From Candidatus Rifleibacteriota bacterium (lineage in GTDB: Bacteria; Muiribacteriota; Ozemobacteria; Ozemobacterales; Ozemobacteraceae), in NCBI GenBank assembly GCA_012520995.1, contig JAAYNI010000003.1, forward strand, positions 1 to 64,000: DNA of 64,000 bases, read 5' to 3'. Under the pieces are notes generated by a model. The model was not told where the DNA came from. It made no database searches and saw only the letters and a list, made by a program, of their open reading frames with translations. The translations under genes were made by a program, and so were the position numbers. Positions 53,385-63,106 of the stretch are shown in pieces. The stretch's first letter is position 1. Each line of letters starts with the position of its first letter.

Positions 53385-53473
53385 TTTTGCCACCCACCAC
53401 TCATCACTAGCTGTTCGTTACAATTGAGGCTTGCCTGTTTTGCTGGATAGGTGTATTTTTACAAAGATTGAAA

Positions 53474-55222
53474 ATGACTCGACAAGACAACGAACAAAAC
53501 GAAGAACCAAAAAACGCCCATCAAGCTGAATCCCTAGAGCCTACTACCTTCGTGGAGCATGTCTTTTATGACAGTGCTCTAATGATTTTCTTCAGCACTA
53601 TTTATAATTTTTTGCCCTATTTGCAGGCCGGAGAATTTAAAAATACTTTTGCAAAAGCCTTGAATGTCTCTTTCTCAGCCTTTATGACAGCCCTCGTTTT
53701 AGCTTTCATATATCAGCTTTTCTATTTTAAGCCTGTAAAGAAGTTGTTTATAGTTATAACAGCTCTCATACCCATGATATTTTCGGTCGCTAATGTTGTG
53801 CTCAAGGCCATATTTGGCATGGGTTTTGGCTTTGTGGTAATGGATATCATTGCAGGAACCAACTTAGGTGAAGTGGAAGGCTTTATTCAACTTTATCTCG
53901 ATGAAAAGTTTATTGGTTATATTTTGCTTGGTCTATCTCCATTCATATTGGCTTTTTGTTTCAGAAAGCACATAAGGAAATTTGCCGTTTATCTGGCAAG
54001 AAACCCTCGCTATATCATTGTTTTCGTTGTTTTATGGGCTTTGATAATACAGATAAATCTTGGAAAAGTCTTCGGGAATAGTTATGAGTCGCCTATAATT
54101 TCTATGTTTCGTTATGCCAAAACCTATATAAAAGGTAAGTTTTATGGAGGTTCTATATATGAGGAAGGTGCCTTTAGAGCGGAGATTACAAGGAACGACT
54201 CAAGTATTCCGAATATAGTCTTGGTTATAGGTGAGAGCGCTTCCAGTGACTACATGGGTATATACGGACATAAGATCCCGAATACTCCTGCCTGCGAAAC
54301 TTGGGAGAACAAAGGAAACTTGGCGGTTTTTCATAATGTTATAACTCCCAGGCCTTCAACCTATTACGCTGTGCCAATGATGATAAGCTTTATGGCATAT
54401 GATGCTCCCGAACTGACAGATCATACGGCTAACAATATTTCTGAAATTTTTCAGCAGTGCGGTTACAAGACTTTTTGGATTTCCAATCAAGAGCGGGATA
54501 CCAACGGAAGCCTTTATACGACTTTCACGTCAGACTATCTGAGTGATTACAGTCATTATCATTCTGGTTCCCGTTTTAACATAGAATCTTCGAAAACGCT
54601 TTCAAACTTTGACGGGTTGGTTGCAGCAGATTTTCTTAATAACTTAAAAAAGGAAAGAAAAGCGGAAGCAAAAGGTTTTTACGTGCTTCATCTTCAAGGC
54701 AGTCACTATGCTTATAATTTACGTTATCCGCCGCAGTTCCAGCGATGGAATTCCATAGATTTGCTTGATGAACCTTTGCAGGAAGACAAAAAACAAAACG
54801 TGGCTGATTTCATCAACAGTATGTATTATACAGACCATCTCTTGGATGTAATGATGCAAAAACTCAATGATGACGAATCAATTTTGATTTATGTTTCAGA
54901 TCACGGAGAAGAGTTGGGACAGAACGGCAAATACAGAACACACTCAAACACTGAGGCAGTTTCGCAAAGCATGTTCCGTATTCCGTTTTTGATTTGGATG
55001 TCTGACAAGTTTATCGCAAATAAACCAGAAAAGGCTGCACAGATAAAAGAGGCTGCTGTAAAGCATAATCCTTGGATGACAGATAGTTTGCCTCATTTGA
55101 TTTTGGATTTAGCAGATATAGAAACAACTCAATATAAACCTGAGAATAGCCTTATTAATCCTGCTTTTCAATTAAAGGATAGAAAAATATTTGGAATTAA
55201 ATTTGAAGACTTGGAGCCTTGA
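53474..55222 (+). CDS. Phosphoethanolamine transferase-like membrane enzyme, copy 1
   Basis: An EptA/CptA-like enzyme that would move phosphoethanolamine from phosphatidylethanolamine to an envelope glycan or lipid. Of 582 residues, five membrane helices occupy about 30-210. The periplasmic sulfatase-fold domain follows. Metal ligand Glu254 is in VIGESASSDYMGIYG, the likely catalytic Thr296 in PRPSTYYAVP, and the late metal site is VSDHGEELGQNGKY. HLQGSHYAYNLRYP matches the His/Ser block of the family. The frame opens at TTG 53468, but the ATG at 53474 is more likely. The next gene is a paralogue. The target could be lipid A, core sugar or a surface polymer. Confidence 0.87.
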   Translation: MTRQDNEQNEEPKNAHQAESLEPTTFVEHVFYDSALMIFFSTIYNFLPYLQAGEFKNTFAKALNVSFSAFMTALVLAFIYQLFYFKPVKKLFIVITALIPMIFSVANVVLKAIFGMGFGFVVMDIIAGTNLGEVEGFIQLYLDEKFIGYILLGLSPFILAFCFRKHIRKFAVYLARNPRYIIVFVVLWALIIQINLGKVFGNSYESPIISMFRYAKTYIKGKFYGGSIYEEGAFRAEITRNDSSIPNIVLVIGESASSDYMGIYGHKIPNTPACETWENKGNLAVFHNVITPRPSTYYAVPMMISFMAYDAPELTDHTANNISEIFQQCGYKTFWISNQERDTNGSLYTTFTSDYLSDYSHYHSGSRFNIESSKTLSNFDGLVAADFLNNLKKERKAEAKGFYVLHLQGSHYAYNLRYPPQFQRWNSIDLLDEPLQEDKKQNVADFINSMYYTDHLLDVMMQKLNDDESILIYVSDHGEELGQNGKYRTHSNTEAVSQSMFRIPFLIWMSDKFIANKPEKAAQIKEAAVKHNPWMTDSLPHLILDLADIETTQYKPENSLINPAFQLKDRKIFGIKFEDLEP

Positions 55223-55325
55223 ATGTGATGAAAAAATCAGCATTAAAAGCGCTATTTTGCAGATGTAAATTTAGAGTTTATACTGGCAGCTCCTTTTTTC
55301 TATTTAAAAACCTCTAAAAAATATT

Positions 55326-57068
55326 ATGTCAGCTGAAAAAACAGAAGATAAACTCCAAAATAACTATTTACAGCCTGAAACATTCGCAGAACGAGTTTTT
55401 TATGACTCGGCTCTCATGATTCTTTTTAATACTATTTATTGCTTTGTGCCGTATTTACAAAGCTCAAATACTGATTACGCTGCTTTTATAGCTTTAAACA
55501 AGGCTCTTGTAGGTTTTACGCTTGCGCTGTTCTTAGCTTTTGTTTATCAGCTTTTATATTTTAAACCCATAAAGAAATTTTTTGTAGTTGTAACAGCGCT
55601 TATACCTCTTCTTTTTTCTGTAACTCAAGTTGTTGTTAAGGCGGTTTTGGGAGCAAATCTTAACTTTTCAATTCTGGATTTAGTGACAGGCACTAATTTA
55701 GGTGAGGTTAAGGGCTTTATACAGCTTTATGTTGATTGGCAGGTAATTGCCCTTGTTTTATTGGCGCTTTTGCCATTTTTTCTCGCTTATGTTTTTCGTA
55801 AATATGTAAGAAGTTTTGCGGTTTACTTGTTACGACATCATATCTGCCTTATAACCTGCCTCATAATAATCGTGTTTTTTTGGGTTTTGTTTATGGGGAT
55901 AAATTTAAGCAATCTATTTGCTCGTGCTGAATCTCCTATAACATGGTCATTTCGTTATGCAAAAACATTTGTCAGTCTAGATTTATATGCTGCTGCTCTT
56001 CTTAAAGAAGGAGCTTTTAGGGCAGAAATAACAAAAAATGAATCAACTATTCCAAATGTGATTTTGGTTGTTGGTGAGAGTGCTTCCACTGATTACATGA
56101 GTATTTATGGTTATGAAATGGATACAACACCTGTTTGTGCTAATTGGGAAAAAAATGGCAACTTAGCAGTATTTCATGATGTAATTTCTTCTAATACTTT
56201 AACAAAATACACTGTGCCAACTTTAATAAGCTTTATAGGCGGGGATAAAACATCTGGACTTTCAGATAGCACGGCAAATAATATTTTTGATATTTTTTCT
56301 CAATGTGGTTATAAAACCTTTTGGTTATCTAATCAAGATAGAGATACCACTGACACGCTTTATATGAATTTTACGTCTGACTTCCTAGCAGATCATAGCA
56401 AATATTATGCAGGTTCACGTTTTGCCGCATACTCTTCTAAAAAATTTTCTGCTAAAGATGGAGTGCTTGTCGAAGACTTTATTAAAAAAGTTGAGAGGGA
56501 AAAAGAAGCCTCCGGTAAGAAACTTTATCTGCTTCATCTGCTAGGCAGTCATGCTGCTTATAATTTGCGTTATCCAGCAGAATTTGAACGATGGACTGCC
56601 TCAGATTTGGCAGATGAGCCTTTAAAAGAAGATATGAAACAACGGGTTGCGGAGTATCTCAACAGCATTTACTACACAGACTATCTCTTGGGACAAATGA
56701 TGGAAAAACTGAACTATGAGGAATCAATTATTTTATATGTTTCAGATCACGGAGAAGAATTAGGGCAAAATGGCCAATACAGAGGACATATTCTTTTGCC
56801 GGCAGTTTCGCAGGCAATGTTTCGCATCCCTTTTCTTATCTGGATGTCTGACAAGTTTATAGAAAATAATCCAGAAAAGTCACTTCAAATAATGGAAGCT
56901 GCTGAAGAAAGCAAGCCTTGGATGAGCGATAGTTTGCCGCACCTGCTTTTAGATATAGCTAATATAGAGACAACCCAATACAAGCCTGAAATGAGTGTTA
57001 TTAATCCAGCTTTTGTGGTAAAAGAAAGAAAGATACTTGGAATTAACTACGAAGATTTTGAACCCTAG
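55326..57068 (+). CDS. Phosphoethanolamine transferase-like membrane enzyme, copy 2
   Basis: A tandem paralogue of the preceding gene, 580 residues, with the same five helices and sulfatase-fold domain. Glu251 in VVGESASTDYMSIYG, a Thr in the segment NTLTKYTVP, HLLGSHAAYNLRYP and VSDHGEELGQNGQY all correspond. The membrane part and the substrate loop have diverged most, which suggests different acceptors. The 103-bp gap before it holds no terminator I can see, so both may be one transcript. The ribosome site is weak (only AAAAAATATT). Confidence 0.87.
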   Translation: MSAEKTEDKLQNNYLQPETFAERVFYDSALMILFNTIYCFVPYLQSSNTDYAAFIALNKALVGFTLALFLAFVYQLLYFKPIKKFFVVVTALIPLLFSVTQVVVKAVLGANLNFSILDLVTGTNLGEVKGFIQLYVDWQVIALVLLALLPFFLAYVFRKYVRSFAVYLLRHHICLITCLIIIVFFWVLFMGINLSNLFARAESPITWSFRYAKTFVSLDLYAAALLKEGAFRAEITKNESTIPNVILVVGESASTDYMSIYGYEMDTTPVCANWEKNGNLAVFHDVISSNTLTKYTVPTLISFIGGDKTSGLSDSTANNIFDIFSQCGYKTFWLSNQDRDTTDTLYMNFTSDFLADHSKYYAGSRFAAYSSKKFSAKDGVLVEDFIKKVEREKEASGKKLYLLHLLGSHAAYNLRYPAEFERWTASDLADEPLKEDMKQRVAEYLNSIYYTDYLLGQMMEKLNYEESIILYVSDHGEELGQNGQYRGHILLPAVSQAMFRIPFLIWMSDKFIENNPEKSLQIMEAAEESKPWMSDSLPHLLLDIANIETTQYKPEMSVINPAFVVKERKILGINYEDFEP

Positions 57069-57085
57069 ATGAAAATTGAGAGGAA

Positions 57086-58495
57086 ATGATGAAAAGCGCA
57101 TTATTAGGCATATTGCTCGGAGCCGCTATTTATCCGCATGCGGCAGTTGCAATCAAAGAAGTCGCAGGAAAAGATGCGGATAAATGCCTTCACACTGTTG
57201 AAGGCACAGAGAAGCTCGGGAAAGCAATTCAAGAACTGGCTCCTGACACCATAGTTATAATATCGCCCCATGGTATAGCTTTTTCTGATGCTATAAGTAT
57301 TGCTATAGAGCCTGAGATGAAGGGCAGTTTTGCCATGTTTAGGTGCCCTGAAATTAAGTTTTCTTTTCACAACGATCTTGACTTGACCAAGGCTATCATA
57401 GATTTGAGCAAAGCCGAGGGAATCCCTGTGATAGAGATGAATAAATCCACAGCTCAAATGTACGGACAGCGATACGAGCTGGATCACGGCGTTATGGTGC
57501 CAATGCACTTTCTGACACAGCATTATAAGCCATTTAACCTAGTTTCCATTACTTATGCTATGCTTTCTTCTGAAACTCTTGCTAACTTCGGAAAAGTTAT
57601 AAGAAAAGCTGCGGAAGAAAGCGGTAAACGGGTTTTGCTGCTGGCTTCAGGCGATCTGTCGCATAGGCTTTCTAAAACTGGAAATTACTCTTTTTCGCCG
57701 ATGGGCAAAATTTTTGACGAGAAAATAGTTGACTTGGTCAAAAACAAAGATCTTGACGGAATCATAAATTTTGACGAAGAAGTCAGAGAAGAGGCAGGGG
57801 AGTGCGGTCTTAACTGCTTCAAGATAATGGCTGGAGCTTTAAAAGGCCTTAAACTGGAATCAGAAGTTTTTTCTTATGAAGGCCCTTTTGGAGTTGGCTA
57901 TATGACAGCCATTTTGAAAAATGTTGGAGCAAATATGAAAAGTGAAAACGGAAAAGGCTCAATTGAAGCCGAAAGCAATAAAACAACGGATCCATACGTG
58001 GCTCTTGCAAAAGCAAGCCTTTCTTATTATTTGGAGCACAAAAAGCTTATGCCTGTACCGCCGGATTTGCCTGCAGAAATGCTCAATACAAGAGCCGGTT
58101 GTTTTGTCTCTATGAAAAAAAGAGGAAGACTGCGCGGCTGCATAGGCACTATTGTTGGATATCAAAAATCTCTTGCAATGGAAATAATCTCCAATGCTGT
58201 TTCAGCGGGCATGAATGACTCCAGATTTTCGCCTGTAAGGAAAGAAGAGTTGGATGAGATTGTTTTTTCGGTTGATGTGCTGAAAGAACCGGAACCAATA
58301 AATTCCATTGAGGAGCTGGATGTTAAAAAATACGGCGTAATAGTCACTTTCCGAAACCGCAGAGGTTTGCTTTTGCCAAATCTTGAAGGAGTTGATACCC
58401 CTGAAGAACAGCTCTCTATAGCTATGCAAAAAGCCGGCATTTATCCTGACGATCAGTATAGATTAGAGCGTTTTGAAGTGATACGCCATGAGTAG
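57086..58495 (+). CDS. Fused LigB-type (Memo-like) and AMMECR1-domain protein
   Basis: Two domains of the AmmeMemoRadiSam group are joined in 469 residues. Residues 1-275 form a class III extradiol dioxygenase (LigB)-like domain: LGAAIYPHAAVAIKEV, IISPHGIAF, LDHGVMVPMHF, LLASGDLSHRL. Residues 300-469 form an AMMECR1 domain, with the invariant LRGCIGTI motif and SRFSPV. These two proteins are usually encoded beside a radical SAM enzyme; none is present in this window. GAGAGGAA stands before two tandem ATGs. It starts 17 bases after the transferase gene. The function of the system is not established. Confidence 0.92.
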   Translation: MMKSALLGILLGAAIYPHAAVAIKEVAGKDADKCLHTVEGTEKLGKAIQELAPDTIVIISPHGIAFSDAISIAIEPEMKGSFAMFRCPEIKFSFHNDLDLTKAIIDLSKAEGIPVIEMNKSTAQMYGQRYELDHGVMVPMHFLTQHYKPFNLVSITYAMLSSETLANFGKVIRKAAEESGKRVLLLASGDLSHRLSKTGNYSFSPMGKIFDEKIVDLVKNKDLDGIINFDEEVREEAGECGLNCFKIMAGALKGLKLESEVFSYEGPFGVGYMTAILKNVGANMKSENGKGSIEAESNKTTDPYVALAKASLSYYLEHKKLMPVPPDLPAEMLNTRAGCFVSMKKRGRLRGCIGTIVGYQKSLAMEIISNAVSAGMNDSRFSPVRKEELDEIVFSVDVLKEPEPINSIEELDVKKYGVIVTFRNRRGLLLPNLEGVDTPEEQLSIAMQKAGIYPDDQYRLERFEVIRHE

Positions 58496-58696: not shown

Positions 58697-59950
58697 ATGA
58701 GTAAGTTTAATAAAAGATATGAGTTGTCCGTAACATCTGAAATAGGCAAGCTTGAAGGAGTTATACTGCATACGCCAGGTCTTGAAATTGAACACATGAC
58801 ACCTGCTAATGCTGAAAGAGCTCTTTATAGTGACGTTTTGAATCTTTCAGTTGCTTCAATGGAATATGATCAGCTCAAAGGTGTTTTGGAAAAAACCGCC
58901 CAAGTTTTTCAGGTGGAAGACCTTTTGGCAGAGGTTTTGGATAACTCAAGAGTAAGAAATAATTTAATACAGAAGATTTGTGCCAATTCAGAAGCTCATG
59001 AAGTTTATGAAGACTTGCTCAAAATGTCGCCTGCCGATCTTTCGGAAGCTCTTATGCAAGGCGTTTTGATGAAACGTGACAATCTTTCCAGATTTTTGAG
59101 TAACGAAAGGTATTCTTTGCGTCCCCTGCACAACTTCTTTTTTACTAGAGACCTTGCAGCAGTAATCAATGACAGAGTTCTGGTTTCCAAGATGGCGAGC
59201 CAAGTCAGAAGCCGAGAAGCTTTGATAATGGAGACTATTTTCGACTATCATCCTATGTTTTCGGTAGAGACATTAGACTTGAACCACATTGATAATGCCC
59301 ATATAGAAGGCGGCGATGTTCTTGTCGCAAACGAGAATACTCTCATAATAGGCTGTGGAGCCAGAACCAATTCTGTGGCTATAGATTATTTGATTGAAAG
59401 CTTTAAAAAAGAAGGCGGAGTGCAACATATTCTGGTTCAAGAACTTCCGCTTGAGCCAGAGTCATTTATTCATCTTGATATGGTATTTACCCTCCTGGAT
59501 AAACATACTTGCATGGTTTATAAACCTGTGGTTATGGACTCTGCTTCATTAAAGACAGTTTCAATAACAATTGATAATGGCAAAGTTTCTATTAGAGAAG
59601 AAAAAGATTTGCTCAGGGGTATGGAAAAACTTGGAATGGAAATGGAACCTGTATTCTGCGGCAGCACTTCAGATACTTGGATTCAAGAGCGCGAGCAATG
59701 GCACAGCGGAGCTAACTTCTTTGCTCTTGGCGAAGGCAAAATTATAGGTTATCATCGCAATGTGAATACTATAGAGGCATTGGACTATGCTGGCTTTAGC
59801 GTTATAGATGCTGTGGATGTCATAGAAAACAAAGTAGATCTTGATTCATACGACAGATATGTAATTACAATTGATGGCTCTGAACTGGCCAGAGGCGGCG
59901 GCGGTTGCAGATGTATGACTATGCCTATCCGCCGTGCACCCGTTAAGTGA
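58697..59950 (+). CDS. arcA: Arginine deiminase
   Basis: Hydrolyses arginine to citrulline and ammonia, the first step of the deiminase route to ATP and acid resistance. The 417 residues contain FTRDLAAVI, the catalytic Glu/His region HIEGGDVLV and EQWHSGANFFALG, and the nucleophile Cys406 in GGGGCRCMTMPIRR at the extreme C-terminus. AAAGGAA is about 9 bases before the ATG at 58697. No arcB, arcC or antiporter arcD gene is adjacent, so the rest of the pathway must lie elsewhere if complete. Confidence 0.96.
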   Translation: MSKFNKRYELSVTSEIGKLEGVILHTPGLEIEHMTPANAERALYSDVLNLSVASMEYDQLKGVLEKTAQVFQVEDLLAEVLDNSRVRNNLIQKICANSEAHEVYEDLLKMSPADLSEALMQGVLMKRDNLSRFLSNERYSLRPLHNFFFTRDLAAVINDRVLVSKMASQVRSREALIMETIFDYHPMFSVETLDLNHIDNAHIEGGDVLVANENTLIIGCGARTNSVAIDYLIESFKKEGGVQHILVQELPLEPESFIHLDMVFTLLDKHTCMVYKPVVMDSASLKTVSITIDNGKVSIREEKDLLRGMEKLGMEMEPVFCGSTSDTWIQEREQWHSGANFFALGEGKIIGYHRNVNTIEALDYAGFSVIDAVDVIENKVDLDSYDRYVITIDGSELARGGGGCRCMTMPIRRAPVK

Positions 59951-60261: not shown

Positions 60262-60350
60262 GGTCTGTCGGTGTATTCCGTGTGTTCTGTGGTTTAAAAA
60301 AGTTCTCAGTTTTCAATTTGTGTTTTTCGTGTGTTTCGTGGTTTGGCGAT
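60262..60350 (-). repeat. R1 repeats overlapping the ATPase C-terminus
   Basis: In reverse: CCACGAAACACACGAAAAAC, then about 30 bases, then CCACAGAACACACGGAATAC. The left part lies inside the ATPase gene and encodes its last residues and stop. Confidence 0.75.
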
Positions 60351-62861
60351 TTTTAAAATCTCATACCAGAAGACCGATAAAAACGCCAACAGAGCTGACT
60401 TTGCAAGCAGTTCAAAACTCAGGCCTTCCAGCTTCAGATAAGAGGCTAGGGGAGTATATAGAATAACAAGCAAGAACACTGGAGTAGCAACAAACACACT
60501 TCTCATAGTATTGTCTTTTAGCAGTTTTTTCAGGGTTTGAAATGCGTATTCCTTCTCTGAGCTGACAACCATGACCAAAAACAGGTTTGCAAGAATCATT
60601 ACTGTCAGACCCGCTGAACGGGCTAAAGCTGAATTTTCCGGATTGGAAGACAAGCGGCTGTAGTAGAGGCCGAATGAGGCAAGGAATATGACAAAACCTT
60701 GAAGCAAACTGGAGAATAATTTTTTGCTTGTGACTATACTTTCTGATGGGTCTCTAGGTTTTCTGTCCATTATATCAGGCTCAGGAGGCTGTCTTTCTAA
60801 AACTATCGAACAAGTCGGGTCTATAAGCACTTCCATTAAAACAACATGCAACGGCAGAAGCATAAGCGAGGCTGATGGAATGCCTAAGAATGGTCCTAAA
60901 AGCGATGCGAGGGCAATGGGCAAGTGAATAGCAAATACATAGCCGACAGCTTTTCTTATGTTGTCATAGATGCGCCTGCCGTCTTTTATAGTTTCAACTA
61001 TAGTTGTAAAGTTGTCGTCCATTAAAATCAGGTCGGCTGCTTCACGGGCAACTTCGCTGCCGCGTTTGCCCATGGCTATTCCTATGTTTGCATGTTTCAA
61101 AGCTGGAGCATCATTTACGCCGTCTCCTGTCATGGCGACTATCTCGCCTGATTCCTGAAAAGCTTTGATAATATTCATTTTGTGCTCGGGTAAAACTCTT
61201 GAGAAAACAGATACCTCTTTGACAGCTTCACAAAGCTCTTCTTGGGTCATGTTTTGTATCATGTTGCCAGTGATGCAGACTCCCTCTTGGCATATACCTA
61301 CCTTTTTTGCTATTGCCAAGGCTGTTTCAGCACTGTCACCTGTTATCATAACAACTCGGACTCCCGCTTTTTGACAAAGAGCTATGTCGTTTTTGACACT
61401 TTCTCTTGGGGGATCTTCTAAACCGACAAGCCCTAAAAAGTGCAATGAGGAGTTCTCCAGGGAAGCAGGTAAAGCCTTGAGATTGTCTAATCCAGCGTAT
61501 GCCACAGCTATAACCCTGAGACCTTTTTTTGCCAAAAGCCGCATTGTGTTTTCAGCTTCCTTTTGGTCTTCTGCAGAAAGGTTGCAGAGAGGCATGATTT
61601 TTTCAGGACTTCCTTTTGCTGCTATAAAAGGCTTTTTGTTTATTTTCCAAACATGTCCCATCATCTTGGTTTCATTTGTGAAAGGATAGTCATGCAAAAA
61701 TTCACGTTCAAAAAGCTTTGCCGTGTCTATAGCTTTTTCATTGCAATAAGCGAGCATAGCCTTTTCCATGGGATCGTAAGCTTCGCTTTCGCAGGCAAGA
61801 GCCATAGTTTCAAGTAAGAGCGTTTCTTCTGTGTTTTTAAAAGGGGCTATTTCCTGAACTTTCATTTGGTTCATGGTTATAGTGCCTGTTTTATCAACGC
61901 AAAGCACAGATACTGAGCCGAGAGTTTCTACACTTTTCAGGTTTCTTACAAGCGATTTTTTTTTGGCGAGCCTCCAAGCGCCCATTGAAAGGAAAACTGT
62001 TAATATTACTGGAAATTCTTCCGGGATCATGGCCATAGCCAAGGTGACTCCGGATAGAATGCTTTCTGTGAGGCGCTCCTTAAAAGGATGATCGGAAATA
62101 TTAAACCAGGTGAAGAGAGCGACTGTCAGCATCAAAATTCCTGCGACAATAGCTGATATTTTAACTAATTTATCTATCTGCTTTTGCAGAGGACTTTTCT
62201 CATCCTCTGCGGCAGAAACGTTTAAGCCTATTTTGCCATATTCGGTTTTGGCTCCTGTTTGTTCAACAAGAATTGTCGCTGTGCCGTGCAGAACAAGAGT
62301 GCCTGCATAACAATGATCTTTTCCCCAATGTTCGTCTTTAACATCAATTTCAGTGGTGTCTGAGGTTACTTGCGTTTTCCAGACAGCTGTGGATTCGCCT
62401 GTAAGTGAGGACTCGTCAATTTGCAGGTCGGCGCAACTTAGGATTTTGCCGTCTGCGGGTATTCTTATACCCTCGTGGATGAGCATCAAATCTCCGGGAA
62501 CCAAATCCTCGCTGAGTATGGCTGTTTCTTTGCCATCTCTTATTACGGTAATATGAGGTCCTGAAAGTTCTTTGAGAGCTTCAAGAGTTCGGTCTGTTTT
62601 CCATTCCTGGAAGAATTCTATGCTCATAATACCAACTACGAAAATGAGCATGATTGCTCCGTCTCTGGCTTCGCCTAAAATGAAGTAGACTAAGGCTGCT
62701 GCAAGAAGAAGCAAAAACATGGGTTCTGCAAGGACATTTAAGAATCTGGTGAAAGGGTTTTTCTTCTTTTCGGGCACCAAAAGGTTTTTGCCATGTTTCG
62801 AAAGGCGTTCTTTCGCTTCAGCAGAGGAAAGTCCAGATATGGGTAGGGCAGGTTGATTCAT
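60306..62861 (-). CDS. P-type cation-transporting ATPase, P2-like (PEEFP), under a NiCo riboswitch
   Basis: An 851-residue inner-membrane cation pump. It has the phosphatase loop TGES, helix 4 with PEEFP (residues 280-284), the phosphorylated Asp323 in DKTGTITMNQM, nucleotide site KGSPEKIM, TGDSAETA and the hinge TGDGVNDAPALKHANIG. Ten membrane helices are expected. PEEFP replaces the PEGLP of Ca pumps, and there is no CPx motif of P1B heavy-metal pumps. The leader carries a NiCo-type riboswitch, which implies export of Co, Ni or Fe(II) ions. The C-terminus (KPRNTRKTQIEN) is encoded by an R1 dispersed repeat. GGGAG precedes the ATG by about 9 bases. Confidence 0.93.
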   Translation of the reverse strand: MNQPALPISGLSSAEAKERLSKHGKNLLVPEKKKNPFTRFLNVLAEPMFLLLLAAALVYFILGEARDGAIMLIFVVGIMSIEFFQEWKTDRTLEALKELSGPHITVIRDGKETAILSEDLVPGDLMLIHEGIRIPADGKILSCADLQIDESSLTGESTAVWKTQVTSDTTEIDVKDEHWGKDHCYAGTLVLHGTATILVEQTGAKTEYGKIGLNVSAAEDEKSPLQKQIDKLVKISAIVAGILMLTVALFTWFNISDHPFKERLTESILSGVTLAMAMIPEEFPVILTVFLSMGAWRLAKKKSLVRNLKSVETLGSVSVLCVDKTGTITMNQMKVQEIAPFKNTEETLLLETMALACESEAYDPMEKAMLAYCNEKAIDTAKLFEREFLHDYPFTNETKMMGHVWKINKKPFIAAKGSPEKIMPLCNLSAEDQKEAENTMRLLAKKGLRVIAVAYAGLDNLKALPASLENSSLHFLGLVGLEDPPRESVKNDIALCQKAGVRVVMITGDSAETALAIAKKVGICQEGVCITGNMIQNMTQEELCEAVKEVSVFSRVLPEHKMNIIKAFQESGEIVAMTGDGVNDAPALKHANIGIAMGKRGSEVAREAADLILMDDNFTTIVETIKDGRRIYDNIRKAVGYVFAIHLPIALASLLGPFLGIPSASLMLLPLHVVLMEVLIDPTCSIVLERQPPEPDIMDRKPRDPSESIVTSKKLFSSLLQGFVIFLASFGLYYSRLSSNPENSALARSAGLTVMILANLFLVMVVSSEKEYAFQTLKKLLKDNTMRSVFVATPVFLLVILYTPLASYLKLEGLSFELLAKSALLAFLSVFWYEILKIAKPRNTRKTQIEN

Positions 62862-62870
62862 TTTTTTTAT

Positions 62871-62911
62871 CTCCCTTTATAGGGCTCAGTTATAAGCCTT
62901 AGTAAAACAAT
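62871..62911 (-). promoter_or_regulatory. Expression platform of the riboswitch (ribosome-site control likely)
   Basis: Between aptamer and ATG the minus strand has ATAACTG (62887-62893), which could pair with the 3' strand of aptamer helix P1. It also has CCCT-ATAA-AGGG (62873-62884), which could cover the ribosome site GGGAG. No terminator stem with a long T-run is visible, so control of translation fits better than of transcription. This is inference from pairing by eye. Confidence 0.5.
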
Positions 62912-63003
62912 AAACTGTCCCGCAGGAGATATTTGAAACCTGCTGCCACAAATGAGCGGCCCGGCTTGCATTCCTTTTAAGAAAGGAACAGCCTGTTCAG
63001 TTT
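62912..63003 (-). ncRNA. NiCo (czcD-type) riboswitch aptamer
   Basis: On the minus strand the order of conserved blocks matches the NiCo aptamer: P1 strand AAACTG, AACAGGC, hairpin TTCCTTT/AAAGGAA, GCAAGCCGGGC, hairpin CCGC/GTGG, GGCAGCAGG, hairpin GCAGG/CCTGC, then GGGACAGTTT closing P1 (62912-62917 with 62998-63003). The blocks CAGGC, GCC-GGGC, GGCA and GGGACAG are the ones that define this family and its four-way junction. These RNAs sense cobalt and nickel, and ferrous iron has also been reported, and they switch on metal exporters. It stands in the leader of a P-type ATPase, as expected. Confidence 0.9.
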
Positions 63004-63076
63004 GTACTGTTGATCTCGCATTTCAACTCTATGGAAGAAATGTAATGCAGTGCAAAGAGGTTTGGTTGCAGAATGA

Positions 63077-63106
63077 ACTATAGCAAATAAAGTGCCTTTT
63101 TGACAA
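63077..63106 (-). promoter_or_regulatory. Promoter of the riboswitch-ATPase transcript
   Basis: On the minus strand, TTGTCA (63101-63106), 18 bases, TATAGT (63077-63082). The leader would be about 210 bases and contain the whole aptamer. Confidence 0.65.

Follow-up and report, generated by a model that had tools for sequence, protein, structure and literature searches.

We analyzed a stretch of 64,000 nucleotides (the window) from Candidatus Rifleibacteriota bacterium, positions 1 to 64,000 of contig JAAYNI010000003.1, in which a NiCo (czcD) riboswitch directly precedes the gene for a P-type ATPase. A first-pass annotation made from the sequence alone had placed the aptamer at 62912-63003, between a promoter and the ATPase start. 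The aptamer is borne out by a covariance-model search: Rfam model RF02683 matches 62913-63010 of the minus strand over its full length (model positions 1-96) with 73.5 bits and an E-value of 3.4e-16, against the gathering score of 37 bits that served as cut-off, and this is the sole NiCo match across the host genome. The earlier location was right, with bounds that miss seven bases at the 5' end, and the ATPase does lie directly downstream; the promoter is a weak consensus match only, the region holding two such promoter-like sites vs 1.0 expected in shuffles. The GGG of CCGGGC and the GGG of GCGGGAC are invariant in 15 leaders, including that of the window, and from matched numbering we infer that they correspond to the guanine tracts that serve as metal-site ligands in the NiCo aptamer (PMC7689651). 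The ligand of this riboswitch class is debated. In vitro it responds to Co, Ni, Fe(II) and Zn, and buffered anaerobic assays of the czcD riboswitch gave affinities of 61 nM for Ni, 93 nM for Zn, 120 nM for Co and 400 nM for Fe(II) (PMC7689651). The window RNA presumably binds metal as well.

The ATPase reading frame (60306-62861, minus strand) is the first gene after the riboswitch and contains AMIPEEFPVILT and DKTGT. Pfam domains Cation_ATPase_N, E1-E2_ATPase, Hydrolase and Cation_ATPase_C all score above their own cut-offs, the first and last being typical of P2 pumps. An AlphaFold model (mean predicted local distance difference test score 83.9) has the 10-helix P2 fold, with LMCA1, SPCA1, SERCA and Na,K-ATPase as best matches. 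Membrane helix 4 (M4) reads PEEFP and carries no CPx, SPC or TPC motif, and the P1B model TIGR01525 stays below its cut-off (277 vs 346 bits). Together with the P2 Pfam domains, these results rule out a mis-called P1B pump and uphold the first-pass description of a P2-like pump lacking CPx. None of the NCBIfam subclass models reaches its cut-off on the protein, and the nearest is that of the PMR1-type calcium pump (TIGR01522, 511 bits vs a cut-off of 798). Our literature search found no characterized member of the PEEFP subfamily, and we found no conserved gene neighbor that names the cargo.

Riboswitch and pump recur together across genomes. A homologue search over bacterial and archaeal genomes yielded 80 loci; an Rfam scan of 14 of them found NiCo directly upstream in all 14, and a covariance model built from those 14 leaders was run over the full set. 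Pumps at least 53% identical to that of the window occur at 63 loci, two of which were set aside, one starting inside the gene (L061) and one breaking into N inside a recognizable aptamer start (L063). NiCo is present in 60 of the 61 readable leaders, the sole true absence being L048, on a contig binned as Brachymonas. The L048 pump (gene start 4558) nests in the NiCo clade without a riboswitch; a binning error or a loss following transfer could account for this. The RF02683 score and the recurrence before homologous pumps rule out a chance riboswitch match.

A census from the RNA side, covering 391 genomes of one clostridial class, sorted 57 NiCo matches by the next gene. Cation diffusion facilitator (CDF) exporters, mostly with HxxxD/HxxxD sites, follow 37 matches and PEEFP-subfamily pumps 18, two cases are unclear (one of them below cut-off), and a P1B ATPase follows none of the 57. 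The Mn riboswitch, looked for in 148 genomes of that class, served as a control. The matches fall below Rfam's cut-off but precede the expected Mn genes, namely MntP-like genes, UPF0016-like genes or another type of P2 pump; these P2 pumps (n=7) share 32-37% identity with that of the window, with PEGLP in the five whose M4 is visible. Since NiCo goes with PEEFP pumps and the Mn riboswitch with PEGLP pumps, pump type and riboswitch type go together. The pairing that the first-pass annotation took as a guide to cargo is thus a family-wide and specific trait, which makes transition-metal export its best reading. We consider it likely that the PEEFP subfamily exports Fe(II), Co or Ni under metal-induced NiCo control, and we infer both cargo and direction of transport from the regulatory and site evidence. 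Two further observations concern the distribution of the riboswitch. One genome (G067, Lacrimispora defluvii; L017, L030, L206, L207) holds five NiCo riboswitches, at least two of them before PEEFP pumps, and after a well-scoring NiCo at L163 (G383:C75:79726-79836) come only reading frames that are short or broken.

A sister clade is controlled in a different way. Ten Clostridiaceae pumps (L062, L064-L071, L074), 46-49% identical and with the same ion site, are without NiCo; their promoters carry palindromes close to TTATCAATTGATAA, and by eye all ten contain TCAATTGA. The palindrome ATTATCAATTGATAAT occurs in Clostridiaceae in these promoters and at L116 and L219-L248, mostly before CDF genes. 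Its 16-base form was counted 49 times in 196 Clostridiaceae genomes, vs 6 for a reversed control; a CDF gene follows at 17 of the 30 places examined and the pump at one. The palindrome is probably the operator of a metal regulator. A Fur box is unsupported, the exact 14-mer lying before CDF genes and the pump and not before feo-type genes, and our literature search found no mention of the palindrome. That the same two exporter types fall under a second kind of control lends independent support to a role in metal efflux.

The presumed ion site was mapped by alignment to LMCA1 and by a family alignment of 25 sequences, with SERCA residue numbers as reference. The pump shares with the P2A Ca2+/Mn2+ ATPases (SERCA, SPCA1/PMR1, LMCA1) its domains, fold and catalytic motifs, and two site residues are kept, E281 at E309 and D681 at D800. 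It differs from them at four positions: E282, next to E281, stands in place of G310, His646 in place of N768, Pro648 in place of G770 and Glu677 in place of N796. Cys684 lies three residues past D681. The sole exception for H646, P648 and C684 among the aligned sequences is the remote L078, and SERCA-like outgroups retain PEGLP, CNVGE and NLVTD. The calcium site, judged by E309, N796 and D800 of site II and N768 of site I, is thus not conserved, because the changes at N768 and N796 add to that in PEEFP. The first-pass annotation had read the pump as P2 from PEEFP. The class stands, and PEEFP alone proves a poor guide since H646 and E677 also depart from the calcium site. Taken as a whole, this departure at N768 and N796 hints from the side of the protein, too, at a cargo other than Ca; from coordination chemistry, a His and an extra Glu would make this site better suited than the Ca site to a first-row transition metal.

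Alternatively, the pump could export Ca2+ (or Mn2+) in the manner of PMR1/SPCA or YoaB, with the riboswitch answering general metal stress. We regard this as unlikely: its best sequence and fold matches are indeed LMCA1, SPCA1 and SERCA and its nearest NCBIfam model is PMR1-type, but the score falls far under the PMR1 cut-off, the His at N768 and the Glu at N796 are kept across the subfamily, and the Mn-riboswitch pumps sit in another subfamily.

How the riboswitch acts appears to differ between lineages. Of 56 clostridial leaders, 55 have the 3' arm of helix P4 and the tail pairing with a downstream segment, often over 13-17 bp, followed by a T run; some such terminator stem arises in 26% of shuffles under the same loose criterion. 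This arrangement fits a metal-ON switch in which the P4 strand would build an intrinsic terminator; metal-stabilized P4 would prevent that terminator and so permit transcription, as described for czcD (PMC7689651). The same geometry bears on the idea that the pump imports metal under an OFF switch. Some P-type ATPases do import ions, and CtpE has been reported to act in Ca uptake (PMC5615198); with a terminator that uses the aptamer 3' arm, however, the ligand should turn expression on, and the class otherwise targets CDF exporters, so that we find an importer very improbable.

The window leader differs from its clostridial relatives in that no terminator of their type was found on its own strand. 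In the free leader, UAUCUCCU in the P4 loop and 3' arm is predicted to pair with the ribosome-binding site GGGAGAUA with a probability of 0.86-0.99. An 8-bp helix arises in 0.5% of shuffled ribosome-binding-site regions, and the pairing is lost once the aptamer fold is enforced. The leader is therefore modeled as a translational switch, probably ON, in which P4 would sequester the ribosome-binding site without metal and release it when stabilized by metal. The folding of this one leader suggests that, once transferred, the riboswitch may have exchanged its transcriptional platform for a translational one.

A conserved 5' extension that lies outside the Rfam model takes the form CTCTTTGCACTGCATTACATTC-loop-GAATGCGAGATCA just 5' of the aptamer in the window, L003, L007, L028 and others. 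Within it, TTTGCACTG is potentially complementary to CAGTACAAA of the aptamer, which suggests a helix between extension and aptamer; the extension is mostly one invariant sequence, with no more than a few variants (L044, L173) that keep the pairing.

A tree of 55 pumps places that of the window inside the NiCo-linked clade (support 99) among Bacillota sequences; a separate clade (support 100) is formed by six homologues that belong to the family and phylum of the host and whose genomes are without NiCo. The window and clostridial leaders are alike even 5' of the aptamer. Riboswitch and pump were thus probably acquired together from a Bacillota-type lineage, joint horizontal transfer being the simplest account. 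By PF01545, no CDF gene was found in the host genome (96% complete), whereas all 14 control genomes have one, and the host's three P1B pumps all carry SCPCA (CPC-type), not SPC. The window pump may therefore be the host's main Co/Ni/Fe exporter among the classes looked for.

We propose that the NiCo riboswitch would sense raised free Fe(II), Co(II) or Ni(II) and turn on a P2-fold ATPase that would expel the sensed metal, forming a metal-induced efflux module. The pump would run the usual P2 cycle, with a membrane site made of E281 and E282 (M4), H646 (M5), and E677 and D681 (M6), and C684 nearby. Several observations weigh against this proposal. Some leaders are identical or near-copies (for example L028, L029 and L031), and the counts overstate independence. 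Related PEEFP pumps in the host's own family are without NiCo, and the subfamily is therefore not bound to the riboswitch. With the aptamer fold enforced, part of the ribosome-binding site still pairs with nearby coding sequence, and Zn, too, elicits an in vitro response from the riboswitch class (PMC7689651). In sum, the riboswitch, the P2 pump and their specific pairing are real, and of the first-pass interpretation it is the reliance on PEEFP as sole guide that needed correction.

Within metal-induced efflux, it is possible that Fe(II) is what the pump chiefly carries in the cell, with Co and Ni as side substrates; the NiCo RNA would then serve anaerobes as an iron sensor. Most carriers of the NiCo-pump pair are clostridial, a mostly anaerobic group, but in vitro Fe(II) is bound less tightly than Ni, Co or Zn (PMC7689651) and the HxxxD/HxxxD sites of the linked CDF proteins do not single out Fe. 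We hold this refinement tentatively, at slightly under an even chance.

P2 pumps under a metal riboswitch have precedent in Mn-riboswitch pumps such as YoaB, which protects L. lactis against Mn (PMC11477304), and C. difficile CD2503; these differ from the window pump in M4 and identity and lie outside its clade. Similarly, the Listeria czcD riboswitch appears to control the Fe(II) exporter LMO3448, of the PfeT kind (PMC7689651), which is a P1B pump, whereas the window pump is P2 without CPx or SPC. In our literature search, which did not extend to the genes listed in Furukawa 2015 and in Xu & Cotruvo 2022, we found no mention of a NiCo link to this ATPase. Our own leaning, held with moderate assurance, is that the PEEFP / HxP / ExxxDPxC P2 subfamily, Clostridia-wide and also in other phyla, is an Fe/Co/Ni efflux class with a Glu-His-Asp site, and that here its riboswitch went from transcriptional to translational control after transfer. 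The original NiCo paper reportedly lists metal transporters beyond czcD. If the proposal is true, P-type transition-metal export would not be confined to P1B and Mn-linked P2 pumps, and a widespread subfamily that current family models place nearest calcium pumps would gain a likely cargo and a sequence signature (E282, H646, E677). It would also offer a handle on the disputed czcD ligand, as the metal to which the RNA responds in anaerobes should be apparent from the ion that the pump moves.

Coordinates and supporting evidence of the features at the riboswitch-pump locus
Feature	Position	Strand	Evidence
NiCo riboswitch aptamer	62913..63010	-	RF02683, 73.5 bits vs 37
Conserved 5' extension CTCTTTGCACTGCATTACATTTC...GAAATGCGAGATCA, outside Rfam model	63011..63059	-	also in some CDF leaders and in almost every pump leader from Clostridia
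Promoter-like site TTGTCA-18-TATAGT	63077..63106	-	consensus scan, 10/12 matches; weak alone
UAUCUCCU in P4 loop and 3' arm, presumed anti-ribosome-binding-site strand	62924..62931	-	pairs with 62868-62875 in free leader
Ribosome-binding site GGGAGAUA, presumed switched element	62868..62875	-	leader folding
P2-fold P-type ATPase, 851 amino acids, PEEFP subfamily	60306..62861	-	reading frame, motifs, Pfam, NCBIfam, AlphaFold fold
Codons E281 and E282 (M4 PEEFP)	62016..62021	-	invariant in 25/25 aligned homologues
Codons 646-648 (His-Leu-Pro) in M5: H646 (SERCA N768), P648 (G770)	60918..60926	-	H and P in 24/25 aligned homologues
Codons 677-684 in M6: E677 (SERCA N796), D681 (D800), C684	60810..60833	-	E and D in 25/25; C in 24/25

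Elsewhere in the window, a greA-leader match at 59424-59521 scored 26 bits against a cut-off of 60 and was dismissed as chance. On the plus strand, 53468-58495 holds a LigB/MEMO-AMMECR1 fusion gene; before it come two similar genes in tandem, membrane-protein-like, the second with a Pfam Sulfatase match.
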